Of a stretch of DNA of 64,000 nt, positions 4,675-59,148 are shown piece by piece. A program made the position numbers and the translations under genes. Below the pieces are notes generated by a model. It saw nothing but the letters and a program-made list of their open reading frames with translations. It searched no databases and was not told the origin of the DNA. Where the stretch lies: positions 8,879,832 through 8,943,831 of the forward strand of contig OZ038458.1 of NCBI GenBank assembly GCA_964036195.1, given 5' to 3'. This DNA comes from Sphaerolaimus hirsutus. Taxonomy: Eukaryota; Nematoda; Chromadorea; Monhysterida; Sphaerolaimidae. The stretch's first letter is position 1. Every line of letters starts with the position of its first letter.

Positions 4675-4801
4675 TGGGGGCACTCCCAGACCCCGTAAAA
4701 TGTAAAATGTCATGCACTTTGCCATTTTCCAGGGCATTTTACATGACTTTTGACACTTTGCATGACATTTGACATTTTACAGGGTCTGGGAGTGACACCT
4801 G
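4675..4801 (-). mobile_element. Palindromic introner-like MITE
   Basis: A compact palindrome whose arms carry CCCAGACCC(C/T)GTAAAATG and internal TGACATTTTAC and CATGACTTTTGACA motifs. On the minus strand it runs from CAGGTGTCACTCCCAGACCC to GGGAGTGCCCCCAC, so the 5' CAGGTG is kept and the 3' AG is lost. Confidence 0.75.
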
Positions 4802-11234: not shown

Positions 11235-13717
11235 TCAATTGGCAGCCGCCCAGCCGATGATGCCGCAGCCGAGACGCGGTCCGGCGTTGCCTGTTTTCTT
11301 GCTCTCTTCCGCCTGGTCGCCAGTGCCGCGGCCTGAAATGACGTTTCGTCATAAGTATTTTGTTGGGGTTCAACATCAGGGTTCTTCAATGAGTAAGAGG
11401 CAAAACAAGCGCAAAAATAAATAGCTACTCCCATGACAGACCACGTGCCAATCCCACACCCTGTAAAATGCCCTGTAAATCGTCAAATGTCATGCGATGT
11501 GTCAAAATTGAACGAACTCCGAACGGAGTCTCCAACTATATCATGGAAAATGCCCTGCAAAATGGCGACTCGGTTGCCATTTTGCAGGGCATTTTCCATG
11601 ATATTTGACATTTTACAGGATCTGGGACTGTCCCCACGGCCCCCACTCCACCCGTAGCCCAAATCGGGAGTGGCATTTTTAGGGGCAGTTTTAGTCCCCA
11701 CGCAGTTAAAACTTAAGAAAAACCTGTAGATTGATGAATTGTGAATTGTTGTAATTTGAATATGATATGGTTTCATGTGGGGTTCAAACAGGATTGATAT
11801 TTCGGGATCGAGACTGGGATTGAATTTTTGGGATCTGGATTCAGGTCACGGGATCAGGGCTGGTTTTTTTTTATAATTTTAGAAATAGGTATCGCGGTCG
11901 CGATTGTTTTTTTAAATTTTCGAGTTCGGTATCAGGGTCGGGCTTGGCGTCACGGGATCGGAACTGGCAGTTATCCGAATCGGGATTAGTTTCGGGATGA
12001 GGGATCAGTTCTGGGGTTTTCTCCAAGTTTACACAAAAAGTCCTAAAAATACAGGATGTGGCATAAGTTGCACGCTGGTGTTTTCCATTCAGTTTTCCAG
12101 TAATGAATCCATCACAAATCAGTCGGCCCATCGAAAAAGCCACTACAAATGAAAGAATGGGCACGCACTCACCCAAATCATCCTCTTTCTCGTGCACGAC
12201 CATGCTGCGACCCACGACGGACTTGTCGCCGATGAGCTGCACCTGCTTGTCCATCATGTCCACCTTGGCCACGCCGGACGCGTCCGCCACCACGTTGCCC
12301 AGGTCGCCCACGTGCCTGAAGCGGTAACAGGTGTAAGGTGCGAGTAAGCGCATGAAATTCTTGTAAAAAAAGTTATTGTGCTCGCTTTTACGTATACTTT
12401 TTGAAAGTAATCGAGTAGGGAAAACGTATTTCTGATGGGCTTCTGATGGGCGTGTATAGGTTTTTCCAAGGCATGGAAGGGAACAAATAGATAAAAATGC
12501 AGAAAAATACACACAAAATGGCTATAAAAGATCATAAATTGCCAAAAAAGCAGAAAATAGGTGAATTTTAAGATTATAATGGGCTAAAAAATGAACATTG
12601 AATATTTTGAGTCAAAATTAGAGCTAAATTTCTCAAAAATACTCACTATTACATTTTCCGAGGAGAAAGTATCATGAGTAAAAGTAAAAAATCGACTTCA
12701 TGTTTTCTGTGCTCGGGGTGTATAAAAACAAATACTTTACGATCACGTCTACTTTAAATAAGGTAAAATTAGCCATTTTTCTATTAGCCAGTAAAATTAG
12801 CTACTTTAAAATAGCCATTTTTCACTGTTTTTCACTTGACACATTTTCTTTCAGATATGAGTGAAGTGAAAAAAGTTCACTAATGTCATTGCGCAGCGTT
12901 TTTCACTTCACTCATATCTGAAAATCACTTGGAAAAGTGTCAAGTGAAAAAAAACGGGCAAATGTGCGTATCAGGCAGATGTGCGTATCAGGCCTGCCCA
13001 CTTTTAACAACTATGGTTACGCCACGACTCGCAGCCTAACTCGCTTACATTTAACTGTCACTTTCATCTTCCATAAGCACCCAACAAGGTTGGAAAATGA
13101 CCACCAGTCCAATAAAACCCAACCCAATCCCCTAAACGCACCTAACATCATCCTCCGGCCCAGCGTGGGTCTGCTTGGCGGGGTTGAAGTGGGCGCCGGC
13201 GCTGACGCACCCGTTCGTGTTGTCGCCGTACTCGTGCACGTGGAAGCCGTGCTTGCCCGCCGTCAGACCGGTGATGCTGCCAAAGATGTGCGTCGGGGCG
13301 CCGGCAGATTCCTGGTTGTTTAGAAGTGGGAAGGTTAAAAGATAAGTCAGTTTACTTACAAAATATCAGCGTGATGAAAAAATGCGGGAAAATGTGCCTA
13401 CATGAGAATCGGCACAAGGTTGGATACATCCCCGCAAAAATGTCATTTTTCGGGGGGGTGGGTGGATCACCGTATAAAAATGCATTATTAGAAATCGTCA
13501 AAGCGGTTTCGCTTGCAGCAACCGCGCCGGAAACTAATAAGCCCTAAATAGCGGACAAGGGCCACAAAAAGAATCCAAAACATAATAAGCCTCTAAAAAA
13601 ACCCGACTGCGACCACGAAGGTACGGTGCAAAAAAACCGGGAAAAAGTTACCTGTTTGAAACGGATGACCCCATTGACAGTGTCACCCTTGATAACGCAG
13701 ATCGCGTGTGCTGCCAT
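11235..13717 (-). CDS. SOD1: Copper/zinc superoxide dismutase, cytosolic type
   Basis: Catalyses dismutation of superoxide to oxygen and hydrogen peroxide. Four exons (minus): 13652-13717, 13142-13311, 12173-12315 and 11235-11332, all with GT-AG splice sites and matching phases, give 158 residues, close to the usual 153 or so. It starts [20 protein letters not shown] with no signal peptide. Copper and zinc ligands are present in [17 protein letters not shown], the H after [11 protein letters not shown] and SMVVHEK. Both disulphide cysteines (NGC and LGCG) and the active-site arginine (GPRLGCG) are there. It ends GWAAAN. Intron 3 holds a palindromic MITE at 11445-11636 in the opposite orientation, and intron 2 holds a palindrome at 12829-12952. 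I see no damage. Confidence 0.96.
11445..11636 (+). mobile_element. Palindromic introner-like MITE in SOD1 intron 3
   Basis: The left end GTGCCAATCCCACACCCTG and right end CAGGATCTGGGACTGTCCCC bound arms with TGTCAAATGTCATG and GCATTTTCCATGATATTTGA motifs. It is antisense to SOD1, so its internal splice-like ends would not be read in the gene. Confidence 0.8.
12829..12952. repeat. Inverted repeat in SOD1 intron 2
   Basis: Arms TTTTTCACTTGACACATTTT and its near reverse complement, each also containing CAGATATGAGTGAAGTG, flank a short spacer. Probably a foldback MITE. Confidence 0.65.
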
Positions 13718-13820: not shown

Positions 13821-13996
13821 GAGGCACTCCCAGACCCTGTAAAATGTCAAATGTCATGCAAAGTGTCAAAAGTCATGGAAAATGCCCTGCAAAATGGTAA
13901 ACGTACGTTTGCAATTTTGCAGTAAATTTTCCACTACTTTTGACACTCTGCATGACATTTGACAATTTTACAGGGTCTGGGACTGGGAAGCACCCC
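13821..13996. mobile_element. Palindromic introner-like MITE upstream of SOD1
   Basis: The ends CTCCCAGACCCTGTAAAATG and TTACAGGGTCTGGGACTGGG are inverted copies. It sits about 100 bp upstream of the SOD1 start codon. Confidence 0.75.
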
Positions 13997-33864: not shown

Positions 33865-36800
33865 GAAGCCGTCGACTGCGTCATAGATCAAATCAAAATT
33901 TTCCATCTGAAGAATCTTGATCTTTTTGTGGAGCGAAGTACATCACTACCAGATGAAATTGACAGGGACGCTATGATTGATGCCTTCGTAGAAACCTTCT
34001 GCCAGTCGGTGCTTTGTTTTAAATGCTTATTATATTACATAAATTTAATATATTATATAAATATTTATATACTACGCGGCAGGGGTCTCCAGAATTTTGC
34101 CCCTCGCGGGATTTGATAGAGAGCAAATCGCTCCGCCGGAGTAGAAAAAAATAGTTGAAAAAAGTTGGGGTTGCTGGGTGCGTTGCTACAATGCGCTAAA
34201 ATGGACATAAAAATTATTTAAAAACAGCTTAATAAGCAATATAGCCTAATATAAACCAAAATATGTACCTTAATGTTAAAAATCTTAGAAAATATCTCAA
34301 AAATATAATTCAATCTTTCTGTAAAATAAGTGAAAAATATTAATATTTTAGATCAGATAAGTGGAAAATATGAATTTTCGGATGTTTAATATTTCAGATC
34401 AGCGAAAAATGTGTCATCGCATTGCATTTCCCAGTGCCCCTCTGGGTCGCCTGAAGCAGACAGCCTGTTTTCCGTGTTCAATTCGCTGAATGATTTCGCT
34501 TGTGGTGATAGGCTTGAAGGTCAGTATATTTTTGCATTGTCGCAAACAGCTTTTTGAAGTTTGAAAATGAGGCATCTAATACTTAAAGTCGATTCCTAAA
34601 AGTCGACTTCTTATACTAAAAACCTGATCTAGGACCCACCCAATTTTTACTACTTTCCCAACTACACTCCCACTTTTGCATAGGGACAAGAAAGTGTCAA
34701 GTAGTGATGGAGTTGCGCCATGGCGCTGTCGCCCTTTAATGACGCCAAAGGGCGCCAGCGCGATTGCGCCATTGGCGCTTTACGCCCTTTTCTCTGGCGC
34801 CATCTGGCGCCTGGCGCCATTATTTCGAATGGCGCCATGGCGCGCTTGGCGCCATTTTTCCTGGCGCCAATTGGGCGCCCGGCGCCATTGTTTTGGATGG
34901 CGCCAGAAAGGGCGCCAAGATGTTCTGTGATAGTTTTCTTTTTACCCTTCACAAGTGCATCTGCAGAATGATAAATATCACAAATTGACATTTAAGCAGT
35001 TTACATCAGTTTTGTGACACATTTTAGATTCAATCTCTACATGCTAGCATGTATGATGAGTGAGAGTAATATTTGGTATTTAGTACACAAAGTCAAGCCA
35101 ACGTCCATTTAAAATATGAAACATCACTCATCAACTCATCTTGTCTTCTGGGGGCAGTCCCAAGCCCTGTAAAGTGTAAAGTAAAGTATCAAATGTAAAG
35201 TCAAATGCAAAGTAAAGTGTCAATCAAAACAAAAAGAAAGTATTTTATTACTGAACTTTGCATGACAATTGACATTTGACTTTGCATTTGACTTTACATT
35301 TGACACTTTACTTTACACTTTACAGGGCTTGGGATTGGCACCTGGCCTATTCTAAACACTTATGCAAAATACAACATGAAGGTACTTTTTGAGCACAAAA
35401 TGTAAAAAGGAGTACTTTTGACAATTTTTGACAAAGAATAAACGTAAGAATTACTTTTCCAGATAAATGTAAAACTGAGTAGCTTTAAAAAAATTTCACT
35501 ACTGAATTTTTGGTCATTTTTTGTGTACAAAAATAAAAAAAAACATTTGCCAGTACATTTTCAGAGAACATTTGCCAATATTTCAACAAATTTTCTAAAC
35601 ATGCTGTAAGTACATGATTTTTTGCTAAATACCTATATACCGTATTTCCTCGAAATACCACCGGGGGGTGATTGTTTCATAGTGGTCCCGAGAGGGGGGC
35701 GTTAAACGAGGGGGGAGTATTTCGAGGGGGGGGGGGTATTATTTCGCCAGAACACAAACTGCAGTATTTGTCATGTACGTTCTCTTTACACTCAATCTGG
35801 GGGGTGGGGTATTTCGAGGGGGGTGATTGTTTCATAGTGGTCTCGAGAGGGGGGGGTCAAACGAGGGGGGGATTTCGAGGGGGGTATTTCGAGGAAATAC
35901 GGTAGTCAAACAACATGAAAAACATGTCACCTGTACTTGAAAATTGAGATAAGGATTGCTTTGAGATTGAGATACTTTCAAAAACTATACGTAAAACAGA
36001 TTACAGATACTTTTTGGGACAAAATGTAAATGCATTCACATACAATACAAAGTACTCAAGCTTAAGTTTTTCCAACTGGAATTTCTAGCAGCTTTACTAA
36101 AATATTTTTTCGTGACATGATCGATTGCTTACCGTATTTCCTCGAAATACCCCCGGGGGGTTTATTTTTTCAAAGTGAGAATTTTGAGGGGGGGGTTAAA
36201 CGAGGGGGGGGGTATTTCGAGGGGGGGTTATTATTTCGCCAGAAATTTTTTGAAAACCAAGTACTAAATTGTCGTCTAAAACGTACGCAGACGTTGAAAA
36301 TGCAACAAAAATCGCCATTTATAAGACTCTAAAGACTTGTATAAGTGTGTAGACGTATAATCACTGTTCTCACATAACAGAGTCATCGTTTTTAACGTGT
36401 GTTTTGCATTACCCAGATGACAAACCGCTGCCTTTGTCATTTACGTTCTCTATACACTAAATTGGGGGGGGGGGGGTTTATAAGTTCATAGTGTCCATTT
36501 TGAGGGGGGGGGGGTATTTCGAGGGGGGTATTTCGAGGAATTACGGTATTTACAATTTTAGTATTTCATAAAAATATTTGAGTGACTATGCTTTCAGGAT
36601 GCTTTTTGAGAAAACTTGTTTGATTGTTTGAAAATGCGCTTATTGACATTGATTGATTGGTGATCAGGGTTGGCAAAATCTCAGAAAAAAATAAAAATAA
36701 AATAAAAATAAAATAGAAAATTAAAGAATAAAATAAAAATAAAATGTAAAATTGAAGAATAAAATAAAAATAAAATACAATTTTAATAAAAATAAAATAC

Positions 36801-45352: not shown

Positions 45353-48300
45353 TCACAGTCTCATAATCAGTTTGGCGCCCAAAATCAGTGAGGCGATGTA
45401 GCAGCCGCCGCTGGAAAACTGCCAGGATGCATTTCCCGCCACTATTTTCTGCTTGTGTGACGGCGAATGCATGTGCTTGATTTTCTTATGGTCAGGTCGT
45501 GGTAGTAAATCGTTGCCAGTTGTTTGCCCGGCAACTTGTGTCGCATCCGTGCACGATTCTGTATTTAGATTTGATTTCACGTAAAAAGAAGTACCGTATT
45601 TCCACGAAATACCCCCTCATGAATTAGCCCTCCTCGAAATACACCAGGTCTGAGGGAGCTGAGGAAGAATAAACCCCCTCGAAATACCCCAGGTGCCAAT
45701 CCCAGACCCTGTAAAATGTCAAATGTCATGCAAATTGTCAAAATTCATATAAAATCCCCCCGAAAATGGCAAACGTATGGCATTTTCCATGACTTTTGAC
45801 ATTTTGCTGGGTCTGGGACTGCCCCCCGTGTCTGCGGGAGCTGAGGAAAAATAACCCCCTCGAAATCCCCCCCCCGTCTGGAATAAGCTACATCATGTAT
45901 GCAACGTACATGATGCACTTATTGTTGTCAATTTGCATCGCAGCTATACATAGACCTAGTATAGCTGTCTACCTTCATATGTAAATATAAACATATCCTG
46001 TTAGGTCAGATTTACTACGAGTTTTGGGTAAGACAAAGGCCATTATTTAGTACCACACTCCACGAAAATTTCTAGCGAAATTACCCCCCTCGAATACCAC
46101 CCTCAAAATACCCATCCTCAAAATTTGCACTCTAAAAAAATAAACCGCCTGTGGGTATTTCTAGGAAATACGGTACATTGGACGGACAGAACGCTATACA
46201 ATGAATTCTACTATATTTTGATGAACAAGTTTACGTGAAAAATCGCGCACCAAACTCACTGAAAGTGGAGCAATGTGAACGGATGAGAAAACATTTTTAT
46301 GTCTGTTCGTTTATTCAGATGGGATATGGTAGATTTCATTGTAAGGTGCATCGTCAGTAGACTATATTTTTTAAACTCCATTCCAAACACACCCGTTTGT
46401 CTCAAGTGCATGACCTGATATTCTGCAGTGCCGCCGGACAAGTCTACATCGCGTTCGCAGCGGCCGTCCAGCAACGACAAACTTATTTCCTTGACTTGAC
46501 TTTTGGATGCCTGTTCGTTCGGTTGTTGCCACTAACGGTACAGTAGATGACTGTCGGTCAATTGAAGATAATAGTCAACTAAAAACGCTGTTTTACAAAC
46601 ATGGTTTTATTTTGGCGTAGACATAGTATTTTTAAACATAGTCAGGCGAAAAGTGATATGTGGAATGCGTTCAAAAAGATCGTGCAGTATAAACGCTAAA
46701 ATAGCTCAGTTGACCGACAGTCAGCCAGTGGGCGCAGCGCCATTCAACTCGATTTATTTAGAACGAACTGATTTATTTGTAAATCTAAACCAACCATGCA
46801 CTTCATTTGTTTGGTGGTCGAACGTTCCAAGATGGTGTAGCGTACTCCGAACCAGAGTTGAGAAAGCGTAATTACGCTTACCCGAAATACCCGGGTAAAT
46901 GGGTATTTATACTTACGCTTACGCTTACGCTTTCATAAAATACCCGTACGCTTTTTTACGCTTTCCTAGCCAAAATACCCGGGTACAAAAAGCGTAAAAA
47001 AAGCTTTTCACACGGTTCAGTTTTACACTTTTGAAAAAGCATAAAACCACAAAAAAGAGTGAACGAAACTGCGTACCAAAAAATTACTGTGTGCGTGCAG
47101 TAATGTGCTGGAAATAGTGGCACATTTACAAATTGTGTCGCAGTATGAATGTCTTGCCAATACTATGTCGTCGAGCAAAATCGTGGCTTCAGATAAGAAA
47201 TTTTGGGCTGAAAATGGATTCCGAGACGTACGATGTTGTCGCCGTCGACAGCACTAACTCCAAGTTGGAAGATAAAATCATGACTTGCCATGTTTCGTCT
47301 AATAGAACGGCAGCCCCCAATAGAACGGCACCCCCCATAGAATGGCAGGCAAAAAAAGTAGAGAAGAAATACGGTAAGTGTCGCTGCCGATGAATTTCCA
47401 AACAACATATGACGGCAGACTACTAAGTGGACATCCGAAAAATGTTGCTGAGAGCTTGATTTGGAAAGAATTCACTGAGAAAACATCTCTTATAATTTTT
47501 TTATGCTTACGCTTTTATTTACGCTTTCCCAGGTATTTTAAAAATACCTTACACTTTAAGTATCCATACTGAAAATTTGGAAAGTGTATTTACGCTTACG
47601 CTTACGCTTTCCAAAAATACCGGTATTTTAACAACTCTGCTCCGAACTCCGTCCAACCCGCCTTGCAGTCGTATCGATTCGCTAAGGGTTTTTAAAACGC
47701 TTTTAAAGAGCGGAAAAGAAAGTATGAACAGGTAAAAACTTTTCACCGTCAATTATAGCGCCGCTGGCACAGTGGAAAAGTGTGAAGTGCACGGTGAATG
47801 GATTGTCGCAGCTGATGGACATGTTCTGGCACTGTCCTTGTCCCTTGCCCACCCTTGGCATTGTTGTGGTTGACATCCATTTGCCTTTGTACGGACACTC
47901 GACGGGCAGCGATAGAAAGTCACTCTTTTCTGCGTTAATCGTTAGCACTACCAGTCGACACTCTGCCCAAAGCATTCATCCAATAGCGAAAAAAGCTCCT
48001 ACAACAAACTGGTTAAAATGTGCCACGGTCGGCCGGCGTACGCGAGCGCGTCGCCGCACTGCCGAATGGCGGCTGGAGTGGCCGGCACGATTGCGCTGTA
48101 GCGGATTTCCGCGATGTTGGTGCTGCGCTGCACCGTCCATATGCACTGCACGCCCAGCCGCCGGCCGCTGCGCCCGGTGCAGTGCGGTTATGTGTGACTG
48201 TTTTTGGGCTACATTAAACCGGAAGAGCCCGGTCAGCGGGTACAAATCCTTACAAGCGTAAAGGTATTTTATAAAAGCGTAAGCGTAAGCATAAGTATAA

Positions 48301-51300: not shown

Positions 51301-52112
51301 CGGCGTGTCGCACGTGTGCACGGCGACGCGACTGCAGCTGGCCGTCGGCGCGGCCAGAGTCAACTGTCGCTGAGTGTACTCGGCGGCGCCGTGGCCGCTG
51401 AACGGGCAGTCGGAGGGTATGGCGGGCTGACGCCACAGCAGCACGCCGGCGCCCGCGTGCCGCATGCTCTCCGGCCCGTCGATGCACGAGCCGCGCGCAC
51501 TCGCCGCACTCGCGTAACATATCGACTCTGCGGGGGGAACAGTGCAGATTCAAATAATGTTGCGAAAATTTTGGCGCCACGGCGCCATGGAGCTTTTACA
51601 TCACCAGCCGTAAATAAAAGATCTCACCATCAGCCACGAGCACTTGCAAAACAGCCAGGGCGCGCTGAACGAACGCAAAGCACCGATAACAGACGAGCGT
51701 ACCGGCAGAGTCCTGAATAGCGAGCACGTACACGGCCACCTGGGGCAGTCCCGGACCCTGTAAAATTCCCTGTAAAATGTCAGATATCATGCAATGTGTC
51801 AAGAGTCATGTAAAATGCCCTGCAGAATGGTAACCGTGTTGCCATTTTGCAGGGCATTTTCCATGACCTTTGACACTTTGCATGACATTTGACATTTGAC
51901 AGGGCATTTGACAGGGTCTAAGATCAACACCTGCGGCGTGGCGCGGACGCGCTGCACACACTTTCCCCACGGCTCAACGCGGTCGACCCGCATTTGCACG
52001 GCCGTGTAGAAGTACCCGTCGCCCGGCTGGGCGCCAGAAGCAGCGCGCGACTGCCGCACGTAGCTGCCGCGCAGCCGCGGCGGCAGGCGGCAAGCGCCGC
52101 TGGCTTTGTTGA
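45353..52112 (-). CDS. Multi-domain cysteine-rich extracellular protein (5' end missing)
   Basis: Nine exons (minus): 51931-52112, 51628-51739, 51252-51527, 49108-49208, 48380-48590, 48010-48167, 47747-47929, 46393-46494 and 45353-45558. Phases agree at every junction except 49108/48590, which I could not resolve. In order: ACRLPPRLRGSYV; LVCYRCFAFVQRALAVLQ; DCPFSGHGAAEYTQ with CSRVAVHTCDTPHSLSLLFAGC; RLDCLGAWRAGG...GQYRCG; KCNFPLWLRGAWLN; VQCIWTVQRSTN...IRQCGDALAYAG; VECPYKGKWM...GQCQNMSISCDNPF; and a hydrophobic C-terminus, possibly a GPI signal. The CxFPxWLxGxW and CPFxG patterns recall the arthropod DUF7042-7045 families, from memory. The intron 51740-51930 is a transposon copy. The signal-peptide exon was not found. 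Confidence 0.72.
45592..46175. mobile_element. TACCGTATT-family MITE with a nested palindromic MITE
   Basis: The ends TACCGTATTTCCACGAAATA and TATTTCTAGGAAATACGGTA enclose a palindromic element at 45690-45828. It lies in the last intron of the 45353-52112 gene. Confidence 0.8.
45690..45828 (+). mobile_element. Palindromic introner-like MITE (nested)
   Basis: Runs from CAGGTGCCAATCCCAGACCC to GGGTCTGGGACTGCCCCC. It is antisense to the host gene and nested in the 45592-46175 MITE. Confidence 0.85.
46853..47639. mobile_element. hAT-type MITE with CAGAGTTG ends and TTACGC arrays
   Basis: CAGAGTTG and CAACTCTG ends are flanked by a perfect 8-bp duplication CTCCGAAC (46845-46852 and 47640-47647). 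Subterminal arrays of AAGCGT/ACGCTT hexamers run in from both ends. A partial TTCTAATAGAAG-type MITE is nested near 47297-47373. The element lies in an intron of the 45353-52112 gene. Fragments are seen near 31587 and 48254. Confidence 0.93.
50246..50666. mobile_element. TACCGTATT-family MITE (TACTCGAATAAT subtype)
   Basis: The ends TACCGTATTTACTCGAATAA and TTATTCGAGTAAATACGGTA bound repeated GGGGGGAATTATTCAAG motifs. It lies in the intron 49209-51251. Confidence 0.88.
51056..51236. mobile_element. TACCGTATT-family MITE (TTCTAATAGAAG subtype)
   Basis: The ends TACCGTATTTTTTCTAATAG and CTATTAGAAGAAATACGGTA bound 181 bp of GCCGTTCTATT(G/A)GA repeats. The right end is only 15 bp from an exon edge at 51252. 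Confidence 0.88.
51740..51930 (-). mobile_element. Palindromic MITE that is exactly an intron (introner)
   Basis: This 191-bp intron of the 45353-52112 gene begins GTGTTGATCTTAGACCCTG and ends GGGTCCGGGACTGCCCCAG on the minus strand. That is the whole palindromic element, end to end, with arms of TGTCAAATGTCATGCAAAG type. Exons on both sides are in phase 0 (ATPQ then VAVYVLAIQD). The element supplies both the GT and the AG. Confidence 0.85.
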
Positions 52113-52302
52113 CTTGGGAAGATGGGGTGGTGAGTGAACTGGCAGTGGGTAGATAATGACGTCCATGTTGCTGGTGGTGACCGGCTCCGTTTCCGGCTGG
52201 TGAAGTGACTGAATGAGTGGGGGATTGGATGTTGATGAATTGGGTAGGGTGCCGAGCCGCCAAGTGTCTTTGATTTAGATTTTATGCTGTTCTTATCGAC
52301 AG

Positions 52303-52756
52303 TACCGTATTACCTCCAATATAAGGCATCCCTCTAATATTTATAAGGTACCCTCTAATATAAGGTATAACTTTTGGCTATTTTGAATGCGATGAAATAA
52401 ACATAAGGTACCCTCTAATATAAGGCATACCTCTAATAAGGCACAGCTGGCTGTGTGCCAAACCACGCAAAAAAATAAAAACGGTTGGTAAACATGGCAA
52501 GAATGATGAAAATGGTGCCGAAGGGCACTGCGATGGCTCTTCGTCGACTTCCGCCGCTGAAAAGTGTGTCAGTTTACGGCGGCACTATTCACTCGAAGAG
52601 AAACTTTGAATTGTTGACCAGATGAAAATCTGGTGAACAAAATTGAAGGTACCCTCTAATATAAGGTACCCTCTAATATAAGGTACCCTCCAATACAAGG
52701 TATAACTTTTGGCTTTATAAATCTGACGAAAACCTTATATTAGAGGTAATACGGTA
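52303..52756. mobile_element. TACCGTATT-family MITE (CTCTAATATAAGG subtype)
   Basis: The ends TACCGTATTACCTCCAATAT and ATATTAGAGGTAATACGGTA bound about ten copies of ACCCTCTAATATAAGGTA. Confidence 0.88.
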
Positions 52757-52838
52757 TTTACATTTGATGTCAGTGTATTAGCACTCTAATATCTACCTTA
52801 ACATATTCGTTGTTTTTTTATAACTTTCAACGACTCAC

Positions 52839-54311: not shown

Positions 54312-54563
54312 CTGGGGGCAGTCCCAGACCCTGTGAAGTGTAGAGTAAAGTGTCTAATGTCATGTAAAATGTGGATCAAAACATTTAAAAAACGAAATAT
54401 TTTTTGCATGACAATTGACACTTTGCTTGAATTTTCTCATGGCAATTGACACGTTGCTTGAATTTTCTCATGGCAATTGACACTTTGCATGCCACTTTGC
54501 ATGACATTTTACATGACATTTGACACTTTACCTTACACTTTACAGTGTCTGGGATTTTCACCC
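54312..54563 (-). mobile_element. Palindromic introner-like MITE, long copy
   Basis: On the minus strand it ends GGGTCTGGGACTGCCCCCAG. Arms contain AAAGTGTCAAATGTCATG and a tandem pair of GCAATTGACACNTTGC units. The 5' end is diverged (GGGTGAAAATCCCAG). Confidence 0.75.
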
Positions 54564-59011: not shown

Positions 59012-59148
59012 GGTGCCCGTCCCAGACCCTGTCAAATGCCCTGTAAAATACGTACGTACGTTTGCCATTTTGCCGTGCATTTTACATGACTTTTGACACT
59101 TTCATGACATTTTACAGGGCATTTTACAGGGTCCGGTACTGCCCCCTG
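59012..59148 (+). mobile_element. Palindromic introner-like MITE upstream of the EXPERA-like gene
   Basis: Runs from GGTGCCCGTCCCAGACCCTG to CAGGGTCCGGTACTGCCCCC. The 3' AG is lost (CCCCCTG). It ends about 70 bp before the start codon at 59219. Confidence 0.8.

Follow-up and report, generated by a model that had tools for sequence, protein, structure and literature searches.

DNA-transposon-like introners have been described by Gozashti et al. 2022 (PMC9860276), and the part of that paper drawn on here includes a class, found in Chrysochromulina, that carries its own 5' splice site and obtains its 3' site from the duplicate. For animals together with land plants, the same part gives only two groups with introners, both of them animal, and copepods are named in its introduction. 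For the larvacean Fritillaria, the authors of PMC13326754, in the sections used here, consider introner transposons with weak splice sites a possible source of introns. Single GT-TG and GT-GG introns have also been reported in vertebrates including humans, and at the BANP site fish have AG, whereas GG is found in most of the other vertebrates (PMC4176328, in the part consulted). We found no animal introner with AG or TG acceptors set by the target among the open-licence papers listed, and a literature search for a CWG target duplicate gave nothing on the subject, as judged by title.

The locus described here lies in the window, i.e., the whole 64,000-nucleotide stretch of Sphaerolaimus hirsutus DNA that was analysed. 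From its sequence and that of the genome, we consider it very probable that an intron in this window was born by the insertion of a MITE, that the MITE family is an introner, and that the same has been repeated genome-wide, apparently with GT-TG forms included. The intron is 191 nt long (51740-51930, minus strand, GTGTTG...CCCCAG) and consists of a 188-nt palindromic MITE copy (51743-51930), which brings the GT donor, and a 3-nt target-site duplicate CAG (51740-51742), which is the source of the AG, while the left, exonic duplicate CAG occupies positions 51931-51933. The minus-strand sequence across the site is ...CGCCGCAG|GTGTTGATCTTAGACCCTG...CAGGGTCCGGGACTGCCCCAG|GTGGCCGTG..., with CAG ending both the left exon and the intron. 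The element edges were set from other genome copies, in which GTGCCAGTCCC...GGGACTGCCCC is flanked by 3-bp CWG duplicates, and the window copy, aligned with these copies and with the consensus, is one C short on its right side. The preliminary description of this DNA had the intron bounded exactly by a palindromic MITE with nothing left over at the edges, which agrees with the genome copies once the right CAG duplicate is counted with the element; of its further statement that the element supplies both GT and AG, the GT is indeed the element's own, and the AG comes from the duplicated target. The RNA of the window element is predicted to form a single long hairpin (-111.5 kcal/mol, z = -14.9 relative to 200 shuffled sequences).

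The two exons join in phase 0 through a domain that the preliminary description called conserved-looking and that corresponds to DUF7044 (PF23071), the upstream exon (51931-52112, minus strand) matching profile positions 2-41 and the downstream exon (51628-51739, minus strand) positions 49-74. The phase-0 join scores 43.8 bits over positions 2-73, whereas a join in the wrong frame gives 22.4 bits and reading the first exon through into the element gives 27.6 bits; one joined peptide of this test contained a few intron-derived residues at the third-exon join. Splicing at these edges is what we infer from the in-frame join that restores DUF7044. The window intron also passes the coding test, its weaker-flank score being higher antisense (11.0) than sense (6.0) and its summed flank scores higher sense (41.7) than antisense (32.1), and the sense strand was chosen because the DUF7044 match decides. 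The next intron of the gene (51528-51627, minus strand, GTGAGA...AG) looks ordinary as read from the sequence. A genome search for a paralogue of the window gene returned only the gene itself. A separate repeat of ACCTCTAATATAAGG units in both orientations occupies positions 52300-52760, just upstream of the DUF7044 exon.

The genome comprises 348 Mb in 762 contigs, and a first look gave 4047 candidates. Forty of these were scored, and the 39 that lie outside the window were aligned as a first sample. An exact search with the 34-nt left end (CNG followed by 31 bases) gave 437 occurrences, and the reversed control gave 0; a second sample, picked regardless of context, consisted of 80 of the 100 occurrences listed. 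Both ends were called in 57 of 60 and 18 of 20 of these, giving 75 independent copies and, with the first 39, 114 copies in all. The right end was sought within about 340 nt, so that three of the 60 (L091, L098, L107) and two of the 20 (L121, L125) were dropped. For L052, L114 and L115, which contain inner insertions, the right duplicate that was counted is wrong and a CAG lies further on, as it does in L107 and L125. Further insertions or inner repeats were seen in L107, L125, L114, L115 and L091, which span 320-600 nt with unchanged ends. Some copies are hosted by recently duplicated genes (L096, L097 and L098; L123 and L124; L092 and L093), and in L092 and L093 both ends are GTGCC (the right one reading GGCAC), a symmetric form.

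The family has a consensus of 189 bp (69 copies of 183-198 nt; median divergence 7.2%) and the end sequences GTGCCAGTCCC / GGGGCAGTCCC. The consensus is its own reverse complement apart from the target duplicate, the three loop bases and two position pairs, 2/188 and 4/186. With the mismatches confined to these pairs, the palindrome is, loop aside, broken only at its ends, which read GTGCC on the left, where position 2 is the T of the GT, and CCCC on the right. In exact form, the mirror end GGGGC is found after CWG 323 times, a count not strictly comparable with that of the left end, for which CNG was allowed; this number does not point to a large symmetric GG/GG family. The family is short, with inverted repeats, a CWG target duplicate and many copies, as in MITEs. 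A second, related family begins GTGGCAGTCCCAAGCCCTGTAAAGTG and was seen at L058 and within the element at L052, where it stands after a CAG within a main-family copy, so that one introner-like element appears nested in another; the copy at 35151-35341 in the window has similar inner bases.

About ten other copies had been claimed for the window, and an end-motif scan placed eight, one of them with a single end, plus fragments; none of the eight received a coding call. That at 35151-35341 (minus strand) has matching CAG duplicates and the ends of the related variant CCCAAGCCC, and the one at 59013-59145 (plus strand) has matching CTG duplicates. CAC duplicates flank the copy at 11445-11634 (plus strand), left CAG and right CCG that at 45693-45825 (plus strand), and left CAG and right CAC that at 4677-4798 (minus strand). 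A longer copy at 54315-54561 (minus strand) has left TGG and right CAG, and the one at 13821-13989, to which no strand was assigned, has no clear GT end or matching duplicate.

In a search for an autonomous partner, PF13359 gave 163 matches, and the element ends were absent from the four loci read. The PF07592 transposase had no genome match in a search whose controls gave none either, and this result is accordingly weak. PIF/Harbinger elements make a three-base TWA target duplicate; the family does not fit this class, the duplicate here being CWG and not TWA, and the element ends being absent at the four DDE_Tnp_4 transposase loci read. The DDE_Tnp_4 family itself has many near-identical matches, at L134-L137 and about 130 further places. 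Most of the matches listed are 633 bases long and contain four in-frame TGA, pointing to an intron or some other interruption common to the copies.

The coincidence of other copies with introns was assessed with a codon model trained iteratively on the joined flanks, with both strands treated alike and neither strand nor frame built in; because it was trained on those joined flanks, its calls are not independent of the coding hypothesis. Minus-strand calls were 9 of 44 in the first codon model and 2 of 51 (L085, L094) after retraining, most having moved to plus frames. A search for further copies coinciding exactly with introns, as proposed in the preliminary description, was positive, similar sequences filling many introns from boundary to boundary: 51 of the 114 copies with both ends lie at a coding-frame join, and the GT end is upstream on the sense strand in 49 of these 51 (p = 1e-12). 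Both flanks passed a stricter limit in 44 copies, 36 of which scored best in sense on both sides and eight of which had at least one flank best on the minus strand. The frame was common to both flanks in 32 of the 36 sense-coding copies (one third expected, p = 7e-12). Among the independent copies, removal of the element and one target copy restored the reading frame in 31 of 75, while the same frame test was positive at 151 of 1626 control CWG sites in the window (9.3%) and at 57 of 594 control sites in the same loci but distant from the join (p = 1e-12). The 49 coding copies comprise 32 introns of phase 0, 16 of phase 2 and one of phase 1. Retention of the element as coding sequence was rejected, with an in-frame stop in 47 of the 49 and a frameshift in the other two.

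The genes split by these copies include matches to PAX, Kir, Cys-loop receptor, calpain and Piwi families, a set that points to an animal host. Matches span the junction for Piwi (L112), a leucine-rich repeat (L050) and ankyrin (L023); a sterol-sensing domain crosses the junction of L015 by three residues, and a TOG domain across that of L016 falls just below the cut-off (27.0 bits vs 27.1). Of 30 further joined peptides searched against Pfam, 11 had a family above the cut-off (6/10, 4/10 and 9/10 without one per batch), and the 19 without a family mean that domain support covers only part of the set; in three of the ten peptides of one batch a few residues at the left end, at a distance from the junction, were wrong. 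In the Kir gene at L044, the element splits the protein between VL and AG, and four other Kir matches in the genome run unbroken past this site, two of which are possibly recent duplicates, since their scores are equal. In a fifth Kir paralogue, an intron unrelated to the element and read as GC-AG lies 4 nt downstream of the element site. Taken with the exact target duplicates and the restored frame, the Kir paralogues without the element are as expected if insertion into an exon created the intron. The same claim in the preliminary description gains support from the frame sharing in 32 of 36 copies and from the Kir matches that are unbroken at the site of one such intron.

The target is CWG, the left duplicate being CAG in 50 and CTG in 44 of the copies with a CNG right copy, so that nearly half of the insertions end in TG rather than AG. 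In 109 copies, with flank duplicates removed, the left/right pairs are CAG/CAG (46), CTG/CTG (26), CTG/CAG (12), CTG/CCG (4), CTG/CGG (2), CAG/CCG (2), CAG/CGG (1), CAG/CTG (1) and pairs with other letters (15). CTG/CTG copies have no AG at the element's end and make up 12 of the 47 coding copies with a left CAG or CTG. The two target copies are not identical in 18 of 44 cases with a left CTG and in 4 of 50 with a left CAG (p = 2e-4), and left-to-right changes from CTG to CAG outnumber the reverse by 12 to 1 (p = 0.003). This bias is 6 to 1 in coding copies and 6 to 0 in copies without a coding call, the latter reflecting either missed exons or another cause. Median divergence from the consensus is 10.6% for CTG/CAG, 8.8% for CAG/CAG and 7.9% for CTG/CTG. 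We read the excess of CTG to CAG changes as what selection for AG after insertion would leave behind, TG and sometimes GG or CG being apparently tolerated; that insertion came first and AG later is an order which we infer.

Four other explanations have to be weighed. The CTG-type copies might be spliced at nearby ordinary GT-AG sites, with residues gained or lost and no TG acceptor, which we regard as possible and on the whole doubtful. A frame-keeping, stop-free GT-AG pair does exist inside the element in 11 of 13 coding TG copies, those in IFT70 and Kir included, and would add residues (9 to 75 extra bases among the pairs listed), and several exons have an in-frame AG downstream. Against this, alignments to solved proteins are ungapped over the exact CTG joins at L105 (IFT70-like, 81.4 bits), L065 (BCKDHA-like, 52.7 bits) and L044 (Kir2.2, 59.9 bits); use of a downstream AG would cost the aligned stretch 7 residues at L044 and 19 at L105; and the BCKDHA locus has no frame-keeping GT-AG pair in the stretches scanned, its first exonic AG being out of frame. 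It is also improbable that the exonic CTG-type copies are young, harmful, gene-breaking insertions still to be removed. The slightly lower divergence of CTG/CTG than of CTG/CAG copies (medians given above) points in that direction, yet 7.9% is not recent, the frames are intact on both sides, and CTG/CTG accounts for the said 12 of 47 coding copies.

For the window intron and its kind, an old, ordinary intron could have received the MITE later, its original sequence being replaced or hidden, and the lack of a coding call in the eight other window copies and in 44 of the 75 independent copies indicates that most insertions need not make introns. Nothing lies, however, between the exons and the element with its duplicate; the frame is regained in the 31 independent copies mentioned when the element is removed at these same edges, coding copies share one orientation in 49 of 51 cases, and the four Kir matches have no intron, which makes a later arrival very improbable. 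Exact removal leaving one target copy would suit excision from somatic DNA just as well as splicing, and such excision, comparable to that of the sequences eliminated in ciliates, has no need of an AG. Excision of a near-perfect palindrome from DNA should, however, ignore the strand of the gene, and with the GT upstream in all but two of the coding copies we consider it extremely improbable.

Based on these observations, we propose that a non-autonomous MITE of the cut-and-paste type, about 189 bp long, would insert after an exonic CAG and duplicate it, the first two bases of the element serving as the GT 5' splice site and the duplicated CAG behind its C-rich end as the AG 3' splice site. Splicing out the element and one CAG would restore the old message exactly, and the same MITE family would have repeated such insertions many times in this genome and may represent a recent intron source. 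Insertions at CTG appear to be spliced as GT-TG introns, some of which would later mutate to AG. We take the TTTTAC about 24 nt before the intron end to be the likely branch site; the AG directly after it is presumably too near for use, which would leave the terminal CNG as the first acceptor. The long hairpin predicted for the RNA would bring the splice sites together. U1 is present in the genome (25 of 26 matches above the cut-off), with the 5' stretch ACTTACCTG in three of four loci read.

Beyond the window intron, we have moderate confidence in a broader reading, namely that an animal mobile element mass-produces introns; that a CAG or CTG target sets GT-AG or GT-TG, both of which persist in conserved genes together with GG and CG ends; that non-canonical ends turn into AG by mutation; and that a palindrome broken, loop aside, only at its ends gives GT to one strand. 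If this is true, paired target duplicates record the birth of an intron as well as the maturation of its splice site, the exonic one keeping the starting state and the intronic one showing later changes of the 3' splice site. The origin of introns is a long-standing question, and here a single family offers numerous insertions whose relative ages can be ordered. With two target copies per insertion, an animal system becomes available for testing the stringency of the AG requirement in a new intron and the way in which such an intron is improved once it has arisen.

As far as the parts of the cited papers used here describe them, the introners of PMC9860276 and this family share repeated edge-to-edge introns, terminal inverted repeats and target duplicates, whereas the present case differs in its animal host, in a CWG target that leads to AG and TG ends, and in its near-perfect palindrome. 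The Amoebophrya introners (PMC7789003, likewise in part) resemble it in their hairpin-forming inverted repeats, short direct repeats at the exon borders and many non-canonical ends; there, however, both ends vary, no U1 was detected and repeats specific to a family are missing, according to the part used, whereas the present introns retain GT at the 5' end, occur in a genome with U1 and trace to a single sequence family. Fritillaria too is an animal in which many introns break the GT-AG rule, but 95% of its introns are non-GT-AG in the portion of PMC13326754 considered, while here the neighbours in the window gene look canonical and only the 3' end of one element family departs. With the vertebrate GT-TG and GT-GG introns (PMC4176328, in the sections cited) this family would share a spliceosomal intron ending in TG or GG; those cases are isolated, whereas here a mobile element would make such introns repeatedly through its choice of target. 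Overall, this is an introner of an already known kind, and its different features are the AG and TG acceptors set by the target and the near-perfect palindrome.
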